IMG/VR virus record: IMGVR_UViG_3300030451_006143
Location: 1-21,422 of that record
Strand: one strand, 5' to 3'
DNA length: 21,422 bases
Source of the DNA: a virus
Shown: one piece after another, positions 15,639 to 20,460 of the stretch
Numbering within the stretch: position 1 is the stretch's first letter
Layout of the letters: each line of letters starts with the position of its first letter
Notes under the pieces: model-generated
Seen by the model: only the letters and a program-made list of their open reading frames with translations
The model's database searches: none
What the model was told of the DNA's origin: nothing
Position numbers and translations under genes: made by a program

Positions 15639-15652
15639 TTTAGTGTTATTTA
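15639..15652 (-). repeat. 14-bp repeated promoter motif, copy 2
   Basis: The minus-strand sequence TAAATAACACTAAA is identical to 1,789-1,802, with the same relation to the preceding stop codon. Flanking bases differ (G versus T on the right, A versus T on the left, in plus-strand view). Confidence 0.8.
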
Positions 15653-15653
15653 G
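15647..15653 (-). promoter_or_regulatory. T4-type late promoter box CTAAATA upstream of gp25
   Basis: The minus strand reads CTCTAAATAACACTAAATA. The TAA stop of the upstream SGNH-like gene (15,650-15,652) is part of the box. CTAAATA is a known cyanophage form of the T4 late promoter. It precedes the whole gp25-gp6-gp7-like-1042-aa block, and shares 14 contiguous bases with the gp8 promoter. Confidence 0.75.
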
Positions 15654-16213
15654 AGAACTTCTAGGAGAAAGTTTGCTATACGTCTATGTTCTTCCTTATT
15701 AGGGTGTCCACCTCTATGCCTATAACCAAGTATATCCTTCCAAATGTTCCATATTTTAGATTTACATAAAGAACTCCAATGTCCATGTGATAGTTCGACA
15801 TCACAGTCAGCAAAAAGGATTATATGCTTCAAATTATGGAGATAACAAAACTGCTCAAAGATGAAAACGTTTTTGAAGAGGTTTTCCATCTGATGATGGT
15901 CATTATTTACCTCACTATAATAACTTCTCATTGGTTTACGAAATGGCACCATTTTCATCTGCCTCTGTAACGAAAACTTTTGAGGACCGTCCTGTGTGAA
16001 GTATTCTATACGACTTGGAACAGTCAGTTGTAATATGATAGGTTGTATTGGTTGTGAAGACACTGCTCTTCTCACAATCGCATCATTACTGATACCACAG
16101 AGAGATATATTATTCTCTGTCACTTTGAGTGTGTCTGATACGATTTTACTAAATCTATCTTCTTGATTATCAAGTTCATCACCCCATGTGATGCTGCATC
16201 CACTAAAAATCAT
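15650..16213 (-). CDS. SGNH-hydrolase-like protein (copy A)
   Basis: 187 aa. The N-terminus MIFSGCSITWGDEL carries the block-I motif of SGNH/GDSL hydrolases with Ser7 as candidate nucleophile (GCS in place of GDS). CGISNDAIVRR (39-49) supplies the Gly and Asn oxyanion-hole type motif (Asn43), and RGGHPNKEEHRRIA (167-180) near the C-terminus resembles block V, with His170 or His176 as candidate catalytic residues. Family members hydrolyse or transfer acyl groups (esterases, O-acetyl hydrolases), but phage versions have unknown substrates. A second member lies at 18,862-19,482 with the same three motifs. Its start overlaps the preceding 55-aa gene as ATGA, and its stop codon is built into the late promoter of gp25. 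Fold call is fairly sure; activity and substrate are unknown. Confidence 0.7.
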   Translation of the reverse strand: MIFSGCSITWGDELDNQEDRFSKIVSDTLKVTENNISLCGISNDAIVRRAVSSQPIQPIILQLTVPSRIEYFTQDGPQKFSLQRQMKMVPFRKPMRSYYSEVNNDHHQMENLFKNVFIFEQFCYLHNLKHIILFADCDVELSHGHWSSLCKSKIWNIWKDILGYRHRGGHPNKEEHRRIANFLLEVL

Positions 16214-16377
16214 CTTTCGTCTGACTTATTCACTTCACTAAAATGATGATAGTACATATCATCTATATCTGCCATGACTTGTTTATCTTCCAAATCTTTT
16301 TGAAGATTTATACAAATATTTTTTATTTCCTCAATAGCATTATCAATTAATAATTTTTTTTGATCTGGAATAGTCAT
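16210..16377 (-). CDS. Small charged protein, 55 aa
   Basis: ATG at 16,375-16,377, stop TGA at 16,210-16,212. The protein begins MTIPDQKKLLIDNAIEEIKN and continues through NLQKDLEDKQ to a tail MYYHHFSEVNKSDER. The first ~35 residues have the heptad-like spacing of a single amphipathic helix, possibly a short coiled coil. It sits immediately after a terminator/promoter pair, and its stop overlaps the ATG of the SGNH-like gene (ATGA), so the two should be co-translated. No family is recognised. Support comes from codon-compatible packing, the 4-nt overlap and the upstream promoter rather than from homology. Confidence 0.62.
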   Translation of the reverse strand: MTIPDQKKLLIDNAIEEIKNICINLQKDLEDKQVMADIDDMYYHHFSEVNKSDER

Positions 16378-16397: not shown

Positions 16398-16425
16398 ATT
16401 ATACACAAAAAAAGAGGACTGTCTA
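16398..16425 (-). promoter_or_regulatory. sigma70-type promoter, TAGACA-16-TATAAT
   Basis: On the minus strand TAGACA (16,420-16,425) is followed by 16 nt and TATAAT (16,398-16,403). The start codon of the 55-aa gene at 16,377 lies about 20 nt downstream of the -10. The -35 falls in the loop of the terminator hairpin. The stretch TTGTGTATAAT is identical to that of the promoter at 17,421. Confidence 0.5.
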
Positions 16426-16432
16426 GTCCTCT
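16407..16432 (-). terminator. Intrinsic terminator for minus-strand transcription
   Basis: Reading the minus strand, a perfect 8-bp stem (AGAGGACT / AGTCCTCT, 16,425-16,432 with 16,413-16,420) closes a 4-nt loop and is followed by seven T residues (complement of the A run 16,407-16,413). It ends transcription coming from the glycosyltransferase and 55-aa gene at 16,423-16,590. No U-tract exists in the other direction, so it acts on the minus strand only. Confidence 0.88.
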
Positions 16433-16590
16433 GTTTCTGTACCTAAGTATTTGACTTCGATATCGTCAGGGTGTGGGGTTCCGTCACGATAAAATTGTTC
16501 TGCATATTCTTGAGTCACCTCAAGCATCTCTTCCTCATCAATGTCAGAACGGACTTTCTCACCCTGCAAGTATATATCGTACCTTTCCAT
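16423..16590 (-). CDS. Small acidic protein, 55 aa, paralogue of the 52-aa protein at 19,922
   Basis: ATG at 16,588-16,590 preceded by GAAGAGAG, a good ribosome-binding site; stop TAG at 16,423-16,425 inside the terminator hairpin. The sequence starts MERYDIYLQGEKVRSDIDEE, has a helix around EEEMLEVTQEYAEQF, then PHPDDIEVKYLG and an acidic end. The layout (YxxYL strand, EE-rich helix, PxxIxVKY strand) is repeated by the 52-aa protein at 19,922-20,080, so both probably belong to one small-protein family common in marine T4-like phages. Function unknown. It follows the glycosyltransferase gene by 37 nt and is probably the last gene of that transcript. Confidence 0.75.
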   Translation of the reverse strand: MERYDIYLQGEKVRSDIDEEEMLEVTQEYAEQFYRDGTPHPDDIEVKYLGTETED

Positions 16591-16627
16591 CTCTCTTCGG
16601 TTGTATATTGTGATACTACAACAGTAC

Positions 16628-17398
16628 TTATATAACTCGTGTCTTCTCGTGTCCTACACGACATGTTGGATCACACCAAATTTCAAAACCTGCTTTGATT
16701 GCATCAAGACAGAAAGAAACGTCTTCACCACACATATCTTGGACAGCACCAGACTCAAAAACTTGCATTTGAGGAGCAAACCAAGGATAAGTCATTTGTT
16801 TGTGTTCAAAGACACCATTTTTGATTAGAACCCAACCAAACCCTGTATAGTCAACTTTGAATGGTTTTCTTCTCTTTCCAATACCATCAACCATCTCATG
16901 ATTCATGACACCGCCATTTGCTTGGAAATCTTCTTCTTCTAACCAGTGTGCAACAGATGTAGTTCTACCATCTTCTGTACAATACCATCCTGCTGCGATA
17001 TCTTTGTTCATCCAGAACAACTTATAGAATGATTCTAAGTTGAATACAATATCACTGTCAATCCACAGTTGATAGTCATACTTCAGTTTGCCCTGCCAAG
17101 GTAATTGATCTGCACCTTTGAGAACGTTTGCTCCAAGCACTTTACATCGAGCAAAGTTGACCATTGAAGAGTAGTCTTGTGAGATTTGAATGGAAGCACC
17201 CTGCTGTACACATTCAAAACATAATTGGACGAAATTTTTGAGAAAGGTATATGATACTCCACGTCCGGGTAAGCAGAATACGATTGCCTTGCCTTTGATG
17301 AGTTCTCTTGCCTTTTCTATAGAGAACTCGTCGTCTCCACCTTCGTTTTTACTTTTAGTTTCGGGGGCGGTTGTGACAACCTTGAATCCTTTTGCCAT
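16628..17398 (-). CDS. GT-A-type glycosyltransferase-like protein
   Basis: 256 aa. The Rossmann-like segment KAIVFCLPGRGVSYTFLKNF (37-56) is followed by the acidic metal/nucleotide-sugar motif LWIDSDIVF (111-119, DSD at 114-116) and, near the C-terminus, GEDVSFCLDAIKAG (224-237) and CRVGHEKT (246-253). This is the order seen in GT-A fold enzymes: DxD, then an acidic (E/D)D pair as candidate base, then a C-terminal His ligand. The enzyme would transfer a sugar from a nucleotide donor; the acceptor is unknown. A near-consensus sigma70-type promoter ends 22 nt before the ATG, so the gene can be transcribed independently of the carbamoyltransferase upstream. Context with a carbamoyltransferase and SGNH-like proteins suggests glycan tailoring. 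Fold call is good; substrate is not inferable. Confidence 0.75.
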   Translation of the reverse strand: MAKGFKVVTTAPETKSKNEGGDDEFSIEKARELIKGKAIVFCLPGRGVSYTFLKNFVQLCFECVQQGASIQISQDYSSMVNFARCKVLGANVLKGADQLPWQGKLKYDYQLWIDSDIVFNLESFYKLFWMNKDIAAGWYCTEDGRTTSVAHWLEEEDFQANGGVMNHEMVDGIGKRRKPFKVDYTGFGWVLIKNGVFEHKQMTYPWFAPQMQVFESGAVQDMCGEDVSFCLDAIKAGFEIWCDPTCRVGHEKTRVI

Positions 17399-17420
17399 TA
17401 CAGAAAATCTTTTTCATTTC

Positions 17421-17449
17421 ATTATACACAATAATTTATACAACGTCAA
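17421..17449 (-). promoter_or_regulatory. sigma70-type promoter TTGACG-17-TATAAT before the glycosyltransferase, with a late-type box in its spacer
   Basis: On the minus strand TTGACG (17,444-17,449) is separated by exactly 17 nt from TATAAT (17,421-17,426). It overlaps the last codons of the carbamoyltransferase. The spacer also contains TATAAATT (7 of 8 bases of the T4 late consensus), again formed around the TAA stop codon of the upstream gene (17,436-17,438), so both early and late transcription are possible. Confidence 0.75.
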
Positions 17450-18818
17450 CGGAGTATTTTTTGGAAAACTCACATGCATGTTCCCATGTATTAACCATTG
17501 GCATACCTCGTATGTTCAATGAAGTATTCAATAGCACAGGACAACCAGTTTCTTCATACCATGCCTCTAGAATGTCTCTGAGAACGCTTTCACTGCCAAT
17601 CGGGACTGTTTGTACTCTTGCACTATTATCAAAGTGTACAACAGCAGGAATCTGGTCAGGATGCTTACATTGATATGTGTAAGACATGTAACGAGACTGT
17701 GGTGGCATATGAAAATAGTCCTGACAGTGTTCTTCAAGTATTGCAGGAGCAAATGGACGGAACTTCTGTCTTCTTTTGATTTGATTGACTAAGTTTTTGT
17801 TTTCAATTTTCCTTGGATCCGCCAATAGACTTCGATTACCCAAAGCACGAGGACCAAACTCACCACGACCATTTGCAACCCCCACGATTCCTTTGTTGAG
17901 AAGGATTTTGACAACTTCTTTCGGATTTACAGTACGTCGTATATTATATCCAAGATAAGGACTGAATTCAACCTTTCGTTTGTGGCATAATAGTGCAGCA
18001 CCCAAAGAAGCACCGGCATCACCGGGATTTGGCATAATCCACATATTATAGTCCTTTTGCAGTTTAGCGTTGACGACACAATTCAAGGCAACACCACCTC
18101 CATAACAAATATTCGGACTTATATTTCTTGCTATATTGAATAACTTACGAATCTCACCTTCTAACACCCATTCGGCACTTTTCGCTACATTTTCGGGTCT
18201 ACTAGAGAGAGGAGAGATTCCACGGTGGTTGTTTTGAGAGAGAAGGTCGCGAACTTCTTCAGTACAACAAGGAGTACCGAACGCTGCCATACCCATAAAG
18301 ATATATTCTTCATCTAAAGGACGAAATCCTGCCCACTTCGTCAGAGCACTATACCAAAGACCAATACTCTTTGGATATTTCATACTCCACCACTTCCAAT
18401 ATCCGACAGTGCCATCATCCTGCACTCTTGCCTTCCATACTGATGCAGTATCCCACTCACCAATGCTATCTACAACAACACATGCTGCATCATCGAATGG
18501 AGATGTCTGAAATGCTGCTGCAGCATGAGACAAGTGATGTCCAAAGTAATCTGTAGGTTGTAATGAGAGAATACGTTTCTTGAATACTGTCTTATACTGT
18601 CCTGCTAATAATTGTCTTGTCTTCTTCCATATAGGTCTCTCATAGAAACCGATTCTCTTATCTGTTGTATATTCTTTTGCTATATGACCTAATATTGGTC
18701 CTAATATCTTATCATGCTTCTCTAATGAATATCTCTCTGCATGACTTGCAAATACTATCTGTCCGTCATTGACGACGGATATTGCTGCATCATGAAATCC
18801 TTCGGAAAAACCAATCAC
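17436..18818 (-). CDS. Carbamoyltransferase, NodU/TobZ (HypF-like) family
   Basis: 460 aa. These enzymes move a carbamoyl group from carbamoyl phosphate, through an adenylate, to a hydroxyl group of a sugar or antibiotic. Conserved blocks in order: FSEGFHDAAISVVNDGQIVF (4-23); GHHLSHAAAAF (93-103) with the metal-binding histidines; VVVDSIGEWDTASVW (114-128); GGGVALNCVVNAKL (240-253); GRGEFGPRALGNRS (317-330); and FRPFAPAILEE (353-363). The C-terminal lobe with NTSLNIRGMP (431-440) is complete. At 460 aa it is shorter than typical cellular members (about 550-600). The start is GTG at 18,816-18,818: an in-frame TAA lies five codons upstream and no ATG is available. It follows the second SGNH-like gene by 43 nt. 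Similar genes occur in several marine T4-like phages. Family assignment is very secure; the acceptor is unknown. Confidence 0.93.
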   Translation of the reverse strand: MIGFSEGFHDAAISVVNDGQIVFASHAERYSLEKHDKILGPILGHIAKEYTTDKRIGFYERPIWKKTRQLLAGQYKTVFKKRILSLQPTDYFGHHLSHAAAAFQTSPFDDAACVVVDSIGEWDTASVWKARVQDDGTVGYWKWWSMKYPKSIGLWYSALTKWAGFRPLDEEYIFMGMAAFGTPCCTEEVRDLLSQNNHRGISPLSSRPENVAKSAEWVLEGEIRKLFNIARNISPNICYGGGVALNCVVNAKLQKDYNMWIMPNPGDAGASLGAALLCHKRKVEFSPYLGYNIRRTVNPKEVVKILLNKGIVGVANGRGEFGPRALGNRSLLADPRKIENKNLVNQIKRRQKFRPFAPAILEEHCQDYFHMPPQSRYMSYTYQCKHPDQIPAVVHFDNSARVQTVPIGSESVLRDILEAWYEETGCPVLLNTSLNIRGMPMVNTWEHACEFSKKYSVDVV

Positions 18819-18861
18819 TTTAGAATAATATTAAAAGATACCCTCTGGAAAACTCACAGAG

Positions 18862-19482
18862 TTAGTTATGTTTTTTGTTTACTATGTCAATTATGTGTTT
18901 ACAAATTAACACATGACCTTCTTCATTGGGATGATAAGACTGTTTCTTATGACCATCCTCAATCACCATTGCTCTTGGTAATTTCTTCCAAGACATACAG
19001 TAATCAAAGGGTAAACGACTTGATTCATCGTTTGTGACGAGAACCAATGGTACACCCATTATAGCACAATGATCTTCAATTGACTTGAATATGATTTCTT
19101 CCGTTGCACGACCATATTCATCATCATATATGTGTTCGTAGTAATGTTGCCAGAAAGGTCGGTGTGCCTCATTCATAAAAATCTTTTGATGAGGGTATGT
19201 ACGACACTTTGCCTGATTGACAAGAGAAAACTTCCGTTTGATTCGATCATAATACTCAAATCGAGAACGGAAGGTCATTTGTATGATTGCTAGATCATAC
19301 TCTTCAATTTTATTGTCTACAAGTAGTTGTCTTTGTATTCTTTGATTACTTGCTCCACCCACACTGAAGTTACACTCTTCTGCATTGAAGTGATCTGCGA
19401 TGAGTTTGCTGAATCTTGAGTTTGCAGGATCAACCAACCTCTTACCCATGGTAAAAGAGTCGCCATCAAAGTAAATTCTCAA
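18862..19482 (-). CDS. SGNH-hydrolase-like protein (copy B), TTG start
   Basis: 206 aa. Starts (M)RIYFDGDSFTMG with the canonical block-I GDS (7-9, Ser9 as candidate nucleophile), then SVGGASNQRIQRQL (40-53, Gly and Asn46 of the oxyanion-hole type), and near the end SYHPNEEGHVLICKHI (182-197, His184/His190 as candidate catalytic His). These three motifs and a shared SRxEYF/SRFEYY stretch make it a divergent paralogue of the SGNH-like protein at 15,650. No start other than TTG fits: its TTG overlaps the upstream stop (TTGA), and a strong GAGGAAGAGG lies just before it. Likely esterase or acyl-transfer type chemistry; substrate unknown. It is the last gene of the overlapping small-gene chain and is followed by the carbamoyltransferase. 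Confidence 0.75.
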   Translation of the reverse strand: MRIYFDGDSFTMGKRLVDPANSRFSKLIADHFNAEECNFSVGGASNQRIQRQLLVDNKIEEYDLAIIQMTFRSRFEYYDRIKRKFSLVNQAKCRTYPHQKIFMNEAHRPFWQHYYEHIYDDEYGRATEEIIFKSIEDHCAIMGVPLVLVTNDESSRLPFDYCMSWKKLPRAMVIEDGHKKQSYHPNEEGHVLICKHIIDIVNKKHN

Positions 19483-19610
19483 TCCTCTTCCTCGTAGATG
19501 AAAGGATCTTGCTTTCTAAGTTTCCAAAGATGATATTGTGTTCTTATCCAACGAATAGGATGCCAAGTCTTGACTTTTTGAATTGTAAATGGAGTTTTAT
19601 CGAGTTTCAT
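19479..19610 (-). CDS. Small basic protein, 43 aa
   Basis: ATG at 19,608-19,610, stop TGA at 19,479-19,481. The protein begins MKLDKTPFTIQKVKTWHPIR and continues WIRTQYHLWKLRKQD to an acidic end EEED. It is rich in Trp, Lys and Arg, so nucleic-acid or membrane-surface binding is conceivable but not shown. It overlaps the previous 39-aa gene by 14 nt and the next SGNH-like gene by 4 nt. No family is recognised; existence is supported by the translational coupling on both sides and the ribosome-binding site for the next gene lying in its last codons. Confidence 0.55.
   Translation of the reverse strand: MKLDKTPFTIQKVKTWHPIRWIRTQYHLWKLRKQDPFIYEEED
19484..19493 (-). promoter_or_regulatory. Strong ribosome-binding site deciding a TTG start
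   Basis: The minus strand reads GAGGAAGAGG, then A, then TTG. The site also encodes the C-terminal acidic residues of the 43-aa protein. The GAGGAA core is 5 nt from the TTG, which supports TTG as the true start of the SGNH-like copy B. Confidence 0.65.
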
Positions 19611-19716
19611 CACTTGCCTCCTCAAATTTCTCCTCCCATGAATCATCAGGAGTAAAAATGACGGGACCTTGTGCTATCGCTTCTGCCAGTTCCTCAAGTA
19701 GTGGATCTTTTTCCAT
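19597..19716 (-). CDS. Small acidic protein, 39 aa
   Basis: ATG at 19,714-19,716, stop TAA at 19,597-19,599. The sequence is MEKDPLLEELAEAIAQGP followed by VIFTPDDSWEEKFEEASDETR, i.e. a short acidic helix, a VIF turn and a second acidic segment. It starts inside the end of the 67-aa membrane-protein gene (23-nt overlap) and overlaps the 43-aa gene by 14 nt. No family is recognised. The protein-like composition and place in an overlapping chain support it; it remains a weaker call than its neighbours. Confidence 0.5.
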   Translation of the reverse strand: MEKDPLLEELAEAIAQGPVIFTPDDSWEEKFEEASDETR

Positions 19717-19897
19717 TTTTTCCAAAAATCAGGTAATATGCCCCACCTAGTACAAGTGGTACGGTTATCATATGCATTGTAACCATCATTTCGAGATCTG
19801 TCAAACCGGTACCCACTGTTACTTGGTCTGTCCATGTACTTCTAATGAAGTAGACAGGTGGGTTCGCCATAAAGTAAGAAATAGCAGAAAAGATCAT
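19694..19897 (-). CDS. Small membrane protein, 67 aa
   Basis: One clear hydrophobic segment (about 38-58, MVTMHMITVPLVLGGAYYLIF) is followed by a basic tail GKNGKRS, so a single-pass protein with its C-terminus in the cytoplasm is predicted by the positive-inside rule. The N-terminal 20 residues (MIFSAISYFMANPPVYFI) are also apolar and could be a second membrane or interfacial segment. A sigma70-like promoter lies just upstream (19,921-19,948). It is downstream of the 52-aa gene by 24 nt, and the 39-aa gene starts within its 3' end. Not recognised as a holin or any known family; function unknown. Confidence 0.65.
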   Translation of the reverse strand: MIFSAISYFMANPPVYFIRSTWTDQVTVGTGLTDLEMMVTMHMITVPLVLGGAYYLIFGKNGKRSTT

Positions 19898-19920
19898 TAG
19901 TAAGTTTGTTCTCTATTTCT

Positions 19921-19948
19921 ATTATATAGAGTCATACTTGATTGTCAC
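19921..19948 (-). promoter_or_regulatory. Possible sigma70-type promoter, GTGACA-16-TATAAT
   Basis: The minus strand has GTGACA (19,943-19,948), 16 nt, then TATAAT (19,921-19,926), ending 24 nt before the ATG of the 67-aa membrane protein. It lies over the end of the 52-aa gene. Five of six bases match at -35 and six of six at -10; in AT-rich phage DNA such matches can arise by chance. Confidence 0.4.
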
Positions 19949-20080
19949 CTGCTCTGGAGTATAACAACTCTTTACACCGGCGTTAATCATCTTACGAAAT
20001 TCATCTTGTCTCTGTAATGCCTCTTCCTTACTGAGATGATGGAAAACTATTTGTTTGTTGAGATATACGGAATAACTCAT
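19922..20080 (-). CDS. Small protein, 52 aa, paralogue of the 55-aa protein at 16,423
   Basis: ATG at 20,078-20,080 overlaps the HNH stop as ATGA; stop TAA at 19,922-19,924. Sequence MSYSVYLNKQIVFHHLSKEE, then a helix ALQRQDEFRKMINAG, then CYTPEQVTIKYDSI. The order of a Y-x-(V/I)-Y-L strand, an EE-led helix and a P-(E/D)-x-(V/I)-x-(V/I)-K-Y strand is the same as in the 55-aa protein at 16,423-16,590. Function unknown. The strict ATGA overlap with a confidently coding gene makes translation likely. Confidence 0.72.
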   Translation of the reverse strand: MSYSVYLNKQIVFHHLSKEEALQRQDEFRKMINAGVKSCYTPEQVTIKYDSI

Positions 20081-20460
20081 AAAACTATACACTTTGTAGG
20101 AATTCCTCCCCTACCTCTTATATATCTCTTTCTTTGTACAGGGGCAAGATTTGCTCTCCATACCTCAATTGCTTCCCATCTCTTCTGATCAAAGAAGTCT
20201 TGCTGAAAATACCAGATTTCCACAGATTCGTGTGATTTAGATTTGTTACAAGTATCGCAGCAACATATCATGTTTGTCAACTCACTCTGCCCCCCGTGAG
20301 TCTGTGCATGTATGTGATCTATCGTATCTCCGTATTCCCCACAGTATGCACACCTATAATCCCATGCTTCCTTGATATGTTTTCTCCACATCTTTTTCGC
20401 CTTCCCATAATTACTCGCCAACATTTCATAAAGATACTCTGAAGGTTTGCTTAGAAGCAT
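20077..20460 (-). CDS. HNH endonuclease
   Basis: 127 aa. Zinc-ribbon HNH layout: YRCAYCGEYGDTIDHIHAQT (35-54) with Cys37 and Cys40 and the Asp48-His49 pair, a GG turn (57-58), Asn63 (LTNMI), then CDTCNKSKS (68-76) with Cys68 and Cys71. This matches the CxxC...DHI...GG...N...CxxCN pattern, with the His general base and the metal-binding Asn present, so catalysis is plausible. Such small phage HNH proteins are either free-standing homing nucleases or nucleases used in DNA metabolism or packaging. No intron or split gene is visible nearby, so the role is open. It is the first gene of the minus-strand cluster, 28 bp from the divergent sulfotransferase start, and its stop overlaps the next ATG. 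Confidence 0.88.
   Translation of the reverse strand: MLLSKPSEYLYEMLASNYGKAKKMWRKHIKEAWDYRCAYCGEYGDTIDHIHAQTHGGQSELTNMICCCDTCNKSKSHESVEIWYFQQDFFDQKRWEAIEVWRANLAPVQRKRYIRGRGGIPTKCIVL

Follow-up and report, generated by a model that had tools for sequence, protein, structure and literature searches.

Probable paralogues among the tiny proteins of T4-like cyanophages, and the link of one family to a putative glycosyltransferase gene

Two tiny genes and their surroundings

The IMG/VR record IMGVR_UViG_3300030451_006143 is a virus record that resembles the T4-like cyanophages of Synechococcus and Prochlorococcus, and the whole stretch analysed here (the window) covers its positions 1 to 21,422, or 21.4 kb. 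We examine two tiny genes on its minus strand, whose products of 55 and 52 residues we call P1 and P2, together with the larger genes that they adjoin. The features that bear most directly on these two genes are given below in descending coordinates; GT stands for the putative glycosyltransferase.

20077-20460, minus: HNH endonuclease gene, directly upstream of P2; matched in the family library
19922-20080, minus: P2, 52 residues; its start overlaps the HNH stop by 4 nt; in no library family
18862-19482, minus: SGNH/GDSL-like hydrolase gene, a relative of which adjoins P2 in other phages
17421-17449, minus: sigma-70-type promoter-like site, TTGACG-17-TATAAT, before the GT gene
16628-17398, minus: GT gene (phrog_1574; T4-GC 102 in annotated relatives), directly before P1; the glycosyltransferase label is tentative
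16423-16590, minus: P1, 55 residues, PHROG 3252 family; AlphaFold2 pLDDT (predicted local distance difference test) 92.6
16413-16432, minus: intrinsic terminator-like site, an 8-bp stem and T-run, overlapping the end of P1

The gap between GT and P1 is 37 nt. Three short open reading frames (ORFs) lie between P2 and the SGNH-like gene on the same strand, and a GTG at 20092 is a possible alternative start that would lengthen P2 by 4 residues.

A first-pass annotation made from the letters alone had described P1 and P2 as members of one family. Both ORFs are present on the minus strand, and the motifs it quoted are exact: YDIYL and YSVYL near the start, EEEM and KEEA at the start of the helix, and PDDIEVKY and PEQVTIKY near the end. 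Its strand-helix-strand outline becomes strand-strand-helix-strand in the AlphaFold2 models of both proteins, with strands at residues 2-8, 11-18 and 44-51 around a helix at 19-36 in P1, and strands at 2-7, 10-16 and 45-50 around a helix at 18-33 in P2 (pLDDT 92.5). Both genes are under purifying selection, with a ratio of nonsynonymous to synonymous substitution rates (dN/dS) of 0.13 over 11 P1 sequences and 0.11 over 5 P2 sequences.

By sequence, P1 is a member of PHROG 3252, which is common in T4-like cyanophages and has no known function: residues 2-47 match positions 3-48 of the 53-position model (E 5.9e-8), and 19 of the 19 members of our P1 alignment match it as well. P2 has no match to phrog_3252 at E up to 1. 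The only Pfam match for either protein is that of P2 to PF20698 at E 0.028, below the family cut-off; NCBIfam and PADLOC contain no match to P1 or P2. A collection of bacterial and archaeal genomes gave one match, and the 4-kb contig that carries it, part of a metagenome-assembled genome, is probably phage.

When the predicted models were compared with a viral structure library, proteins of S-SRM01, S-CAM7 and S-SKS1 came within the top four for P1, and their organisms and lengths indicate that they are P1 family members. The P2 model gave weaker E-values (best 0.018), and its top 13 includes proteins of S-SCSM1, S-SM2, S-SRM01, S-CAM7, S-SKS1 and S-T4 that are also on the P1 list; these common matches have E-values of 0.028-0.078 for the P2 model and query TM-scores of 0.69-0.75. 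One viral protein, E3SIY4 of S-SM2, is probably the product of SSM2_090, a gene of the phrog_2626 family discussed below, judging by its length. The matches to the P2 model also include longer proteins in BFVD, A0A6J5KYH0 (296 residues) and A0A6J5L9A6 (230 residues). Among solved structures, Foldseek found no match to the P1 model at E 0.001 or better, the best VIA Z-scores were 4.4 for P1 and 4.1 for P2, and the only sequence matches in the PDB stand at E 0.11 and 0.62. An AcrIIC5 chain was considered as a fold match for P2 (Z 4.1, 2.1 Å over 47 residues); such Z-scores are common, and the match was not used.

Kinship of P1, P2 and phrog_2626

Compared as single sequences, P1 and P2 are identical at 11 of 47 positions (23%), with an E-value of 0.001 for that one pair. 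Profiles built from P1 (A1, 19 rows) and from P2 (A2, 6 rows; A5, 10 rows) align in hhalign at 81% for A2 (E 1.2e-5) and 77% for A5 (E 2e-5), and a larger P1 alignment (A4, 41 rows) gives 59% against the P2 profile (E 9e-5). The P1-P2 profile score of 27.6 lies far above those of 200 column shuffles (mean 9.2, standard deviation 2.0, maximum 15.3). We also scored 330 small phage ORFs singly against the P1 profile, in a set that excludes ORFs overlapping longer ones, the P1 of S-SKS1 among them. Scores of 24.6 and 23.5 were obtained for two apparently unrelated ORFs, which places them above the P2 of the window alone (20.5) and below the P2 orthologue (28.9) of a 121-kb contig, IMGVR_UViG_3300017909_004107 (G001). 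Because apparently unrelated small ORFs outscore the window P2 in this comparison, the direct link between P1 and P2, taken alone, is only suggestive.

A third family bridges the two. The phrog_2626 family, represented by PSSM2_103 and by gene 104 of Bellamy, shows profile homology to P1 as well as to P2 and differs from them in a longer C-terminal tail, whose last two residues are SY or SF in 9 of the 10 rows of its alignment (A6). Against P1 (A1) this profile reaches 91.9% over 29 columns (E 6.8e-7) and against P2 (A5) 92.2% over 45 columns (E 6e-7), and neither score was reached by any of 200 shuffles. Because phrog_2626 matches both profiles in this way we regard the paralogy of P1 and P2, judged from profiles and predicted fold, as well supported. 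P2 compared with the phrog_2626 family model itself gives an E-value of 0.075 over residues 2-20 only. Three negative controls, KH (phrog_516), an AbrB-like family named by eye and phrog_31958, score 0.0-2.9% against the superfamily profiles, with KH and the AbrB-like family at 0.0-0.1%.

Six-frame searches of whole records agree with this grouping. With A1, the matches other than P1 in nine complete phages are the phrog_2626 genes of P-SSM2 (E 0.0039) and S-SSM7 (E 3.7e-4), and the same search found no P1 in S-SSM7; with A6, the sole extra match in eight records is the P2 of G001 (E 0.0015); and with A2, P2 appears in G001 alone among ten records, where one other match lies inside the phrog_2626 gene (E 0.09). 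G001 carries three members of the superfamily. The duplication that the first-pass annotation had invoked as their origin is supported by the profile links, the shared predicted fold, the bridging third family and the presence of all three in one contig. We accordingly describe a predicted superfamily of strand-strand-helix-strand proteins of about 50-60 residues in T4-like cyanophages; PHROG 3252 (P1), PHROG 2626 and P2 form at least three branches of it.

These proteins could instead be convergent look-alikes of a simple fold. The 23% identity over 47 residues, the two apparently unrelated ORFs that score 24.6 and 23.5 against the P1 profile, and the many unrelated phage minifolds that give TM-scores of 0.5-0.6 with the P1 and P2 models all fit that explanation. 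Against it stand the matches of phrog_2626 to both profiles beside control families at 0.0-2.9%, and the whole-record searches, whose extra matches are phrog_2626 only with A1 and the G001 P2 only with A6. On balance we give convergence a small chance.

Some further tiny ORFs lie near the same genes. Those just upstream of GT in three phages (S-SSM7_094, Sf-FS3_75 and S-SCSM2R_95) score 51%, 37% and 34% against the superfamily profiles and may represent a fourth branch. The tiny phrog_31958 protein that occupies the P1 slot in S-SSM7, with a similar one in Sf-FS3, looked related by eye and was set aside, its profile scores being 2.0% with A1, 2.9% with A5 and 0.1% with A6.

P1 and the glycosyltransferase gene

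Relatives of P1 were collected independently of GT, as 31 loci and the best 80 from a set of 586. Of these 111 fetched loci, one with a 20-residue P1 fragment (L032) was left unscored, and six of the other 110 have P1 at the very start of the contig, which leaves 104 assessable metagenomic loci. In all 104, GT is directly upstream of P1 with a gap of at most 60 nt, and in 67 of these the two genes overlap by 1 nt, where gaps were counted from the start codon nearest the GT stop, a choice that favours small gaps. Nineteen of 20 named records, covered by whole-record or regional searches, carry GT. P1 stands directly behind it in nine (S-SRM01, DSL-LC03, ACG-2014f, P-SSM2, S-SKS1, S-SCSM1, SynMITS9220M01, S-T4 and S-CAM9) and one gene further away in Sf-CH5; the phrog_3252 members PSSM2_107 of P-SSM2 and SWZG_00170 of S-SKS1 occupy this same slot. 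The P1 of S-SCSM1 was found by A1 and missed by phrog_3252 at E 0.01, and in S-CAM9 an unannotated frame of the P1 family lies directly behind the GT gene, near 49748-49855 of KU686205.1.

Other records weigh against an invariable association. In S-CAM7, P1 sits beside gp25 with GT 115 kb away; 8 of the 19 GT-bearing records (S-SSM7, S-SM2, Bellamy, P-TIM68, S-TIM5, Sf-FS3, S-SCSM2R and S-B05) yielded no P1 to the models used, whether just behind GT or in another place; and S-BM3 has P1 and no GT match. The linkage of P1 to GT is strong and not obligate. The enzyme's identity also calls for caution: the gene matches phrog_1574, labelled 'unknown function', at E 1.9e-114, its protein has no match in Pfam, NCBIfam or the PDB, and the glycosyltransferase label comes from a weak match to a glycosyltransferase PHROG, phrog_34859 (E 3.7e-6), and from some record annotations.

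Transcription signals were counted over distinct sequences, as the IMG/VR loci include near-identical contigs, in three sets: loci L108-L187, those of loci L200-L279 in which the next large ORF begins 40-69 nt behind phrog_2626, and the clade of the window. The pattern TTGACN-17-TANNNT precedes GT in 55 of 57, 44 of 44 and 13 of 16 sequences, respectively (0.06-0.28 in shuffles), with a spacing of 17 in all 112 matches, and precedes the P1 start in none of 77. In the window clade, 18 of 22 sequences have a terminator-like site behind P1 (0.2 in shuffles), and on the minus strand of the window no promoter- or terminator-like site is listed between GT and P1. By the promoter types described in PMC2984593, GT has the sigma-70-type promoter that is expected upstream of the first gene of an early cyanophage transcription unit. 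Because this promoter stands before GT, none stands before P1 and a terminator follows P1 in the window clade, we predict that GT and P1 of the window are likely a two-gene operon of early type.

The signals of late transcription are less uniform. The late motif in its exact form, NATAAATA, stands before gp25 in 60 of 61 sequences of L108-L187 and is absent before GT in all three sets (0 of 57, 0 of 44 and 0 of 16) and before the P1 start (0 of 77), and motifs with one mismatch precede GT in 44 of 57, 27 of 44 and 9 of 16 (9.6, 14.5 and 3.8 in shuffles). In the window clade the late motif of gp25 differs from TATAAATA, with exact NATAAATA in 2 of 18 sequences and CTAAATA in 17 of 18 (0.5 in shuffles); CTAAATA also occurs before GT in 7 of 16. 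PMC2984593 describes mixed early and late signals for some cyanophage genes, and because of this and the degenerate late-like motifs before GT, late expression of GT and P1 in addition to early expression may occur.

What follows P1 varies: in the window clade it is a terminator-like site, and in 82 of 104 loci it is KH, a tiny basic gene that was not found in the window. The KH protein (L108-L187, L024-L028 and SWZG_00169 of S-SKS1) is very basic, with the pattern KKTRQGxGKHTKYAATSRNxxKKRYRGQG.

The other two branches keep more varied company. A search with the phrog_2626 protein of G001 gave 83 loci, of which we took the best 80: GT lies downstream in 65, within 60 nt in 53 of these, and in 43 of the 65 P1 is present too, no more than 120 nt from the end of GT, so that GT is bracketed by phrog_2626 and P1 in many phages. 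In S-CAM7, phrog_2626 accompanies GT at 182 kb, far from gp25 at 67.7 kb. Elsewhere phrog_2626 abuts or overlaps a 2-oxoglutarate (2OG)-Fe(II) oxygenase gene (PF13640 or PF13759; L258, L272, L274 and L200, with the two 156 nt apart in L231) and, in L200, also a sulfotransferase gene (PF00685). P2 is rarer, being found in 14 loci and in one named record, AG-345-D19, with three other matched records at E of at least 6; in 5 of the 14 loci the closest gene of larger size is SGNH-like. The first-pass annotation's statement that members sit beside different genes thus agrees with the neighbours seen here (GT, HNH, SGNH-like, 2OG oxygenase and sulfotransferase genes), and its picture of a family dispersed in the cassette has to be corrected for P1, which stands directly behind one enzyme gene in every assessable metagenomic locus and apparently shares its promoter and terminator in the window.

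In G001, phrog_2626 belongs to a run of touching or overlapping genes at 71887-75239 on the minus strand, together with genes for a sulfotransferase and a 2OG oxygenase and, identified by eye, one SGNH-like and two more oxygenase-like ORFs.

Possible roles and the wider cassette

We tentatively propose, at somewhat less than even odds, that P1 and P2 are partner subunits of the enzymes encoded beside them, which for P1 would be the GT. P1 would be made in step with GT and bind its product, helping its folding or stability, its activity or its targeting to an acceptor, and the duplicated copies, phrog_2626 and P2, would serve the same GT or other adjoining modifying enzymes likewise, with 2OG-Fe(II) oxygenases, the sulfotransferase and the SGNH hydrolase as candidates. 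MbtH-like proteins are small and are encoded beside a much larger enzyme that they activate or stabilise; the comparison with P1 is an analogy of working only, and the class of partner enzyme differs. In a bolder version, which we think distinctly unlikely, the superfamily would consist of interchangeable adaptor subunits that are re-assorted beside modifying enzymes and set the substrate of each, with a GT core forming a heteromer with phrog_2626 and P1.

Several observations, besides the imperfect linkage and the uncertain GT label, pull against the partner-subunit proposal. Because L108-L187 have no terminator-like site behind P1 (0 of 65 sequences, with one behind KH in 3 of 64) and KH follows as a third tiny gene, co-transcription does not single out GT as the partner. 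In 11 of 65 sequences of these loci (0.2 in shuffles) a terminator-like site also stands a short way past the GT stop, either ahead of P1 or within it, and L031 has a 9-bp stem between GT and P1. Among the other branches, 15 of the 80 phrog_2626 loci have no GT within the fetched stretch, phrog_2626 also adjoins unannotated genes and, in L046, an NfuA-like gene (by eye), and the gene directly upstream of P2 is HNH in 9 of 14 loci.

P1 and P2 might instead be early host-takeover proteins, inhibitors or regulators of, for example, RNA polymerase, that merely share the transcription unit of GT. T7 Gp2-type RNA polymerase inhibitors are small early phage proteins, and because of the early-type promoter before the operon the inhibitor or regulator role named by the first-pass annotation, which otherwise finds no support here, keeps a share of the probability. 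The persistence of P1 without an adjacent GT in S-CAM7 and S-BM3 and the lack of an annotated family for P1 or P2 point the same way. No Gp2-type chain is among the PDB sequence matches of P1 and P2, no direct comparison having been made, and the absence of a significant sequence match to any solved structure says little. Shared timing would not require P1 to adjoin the same enzyme gene directly in all 104 assessable loci, and in many of them to overlap it by 1 nt, and we consider the takeover role unlikely, if a serious contender. If P1 were a minor protein of the virion or of baseplate assembly, retained near gp25 for that reason, this would account for S-CAM7, where P1 is still upstream of gp25 with GT elsewhere, and for the one-mismatch late-like motifs, which exceed shuffles before GT in all three sets and led us to lower the partner-subunit proposal slightly and to raise this one by a similar step. 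Since the exact late motif that marks gp25 in L108-L187 is missing before both GT and P1, and the window clade has a terminator-like site between P1 and gp25, such a role seems quite improbable. Least probable of all is a nucleic-acid-binding P1, or one that regulates its own operon through the mRNA or the promoter: tiny AbrB-like ORFs (by eye) upstream of GT in several phages suggest that small regulators may occur here, but the P1 of the window has 18 acidic residues against 5 lysines and arginines, with the S-SKS1 relative less acidic, and P1 has no match to a DNA- or RNA-binding family.

P1's family was already known as an uncharacterised PHROG, and among the papers listed by a literature search, mostly outside subscription papers, none described these proteins, the link between the three families, the GT-P1 unit or the bracketing of GT. 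With three tiny families joined in a superfamily, and one of the three closely tied to a single enzyme gene, orphan ORFs yield a testable question: whether the tiny proteins bind and control the adjoining enzyme, and what that enzyme modifies in the cyanobacterial host.

The remaining genes of the cassette lie on either side of the GT-P1 unit, and beyond the last of those given below the minus strand continues with gp25, gp6 and then very large ORFs.

17436-18818, minus: NodU-like carbamoyltransferase gene, matched in the library
16210-16377, minus: 55-residue ORF, after P1
15650-16213, minus: ORF resembled by other SGNH-like ORFs, after the 55-residue ORF

The ORFs at 15650-16213 and 18862-19482 look related, one of them with a sub-threshold GDSL/SGNH match, and the presence of this pair and a NodU-like carbamoyltransferase in one cassette suggests sugar or lipid tailoring. 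Only about the last 22 residues of the ORF at 16210-16377 (ADID..YYHHFS..KSDER) are common with a 239-residue protein of relatives, phrog_3704, which is labelled ferredoxin and occupies the same slot before gp25; the remainder is unlike, as if bodies had been swapped onto a fixed C-terminal end.

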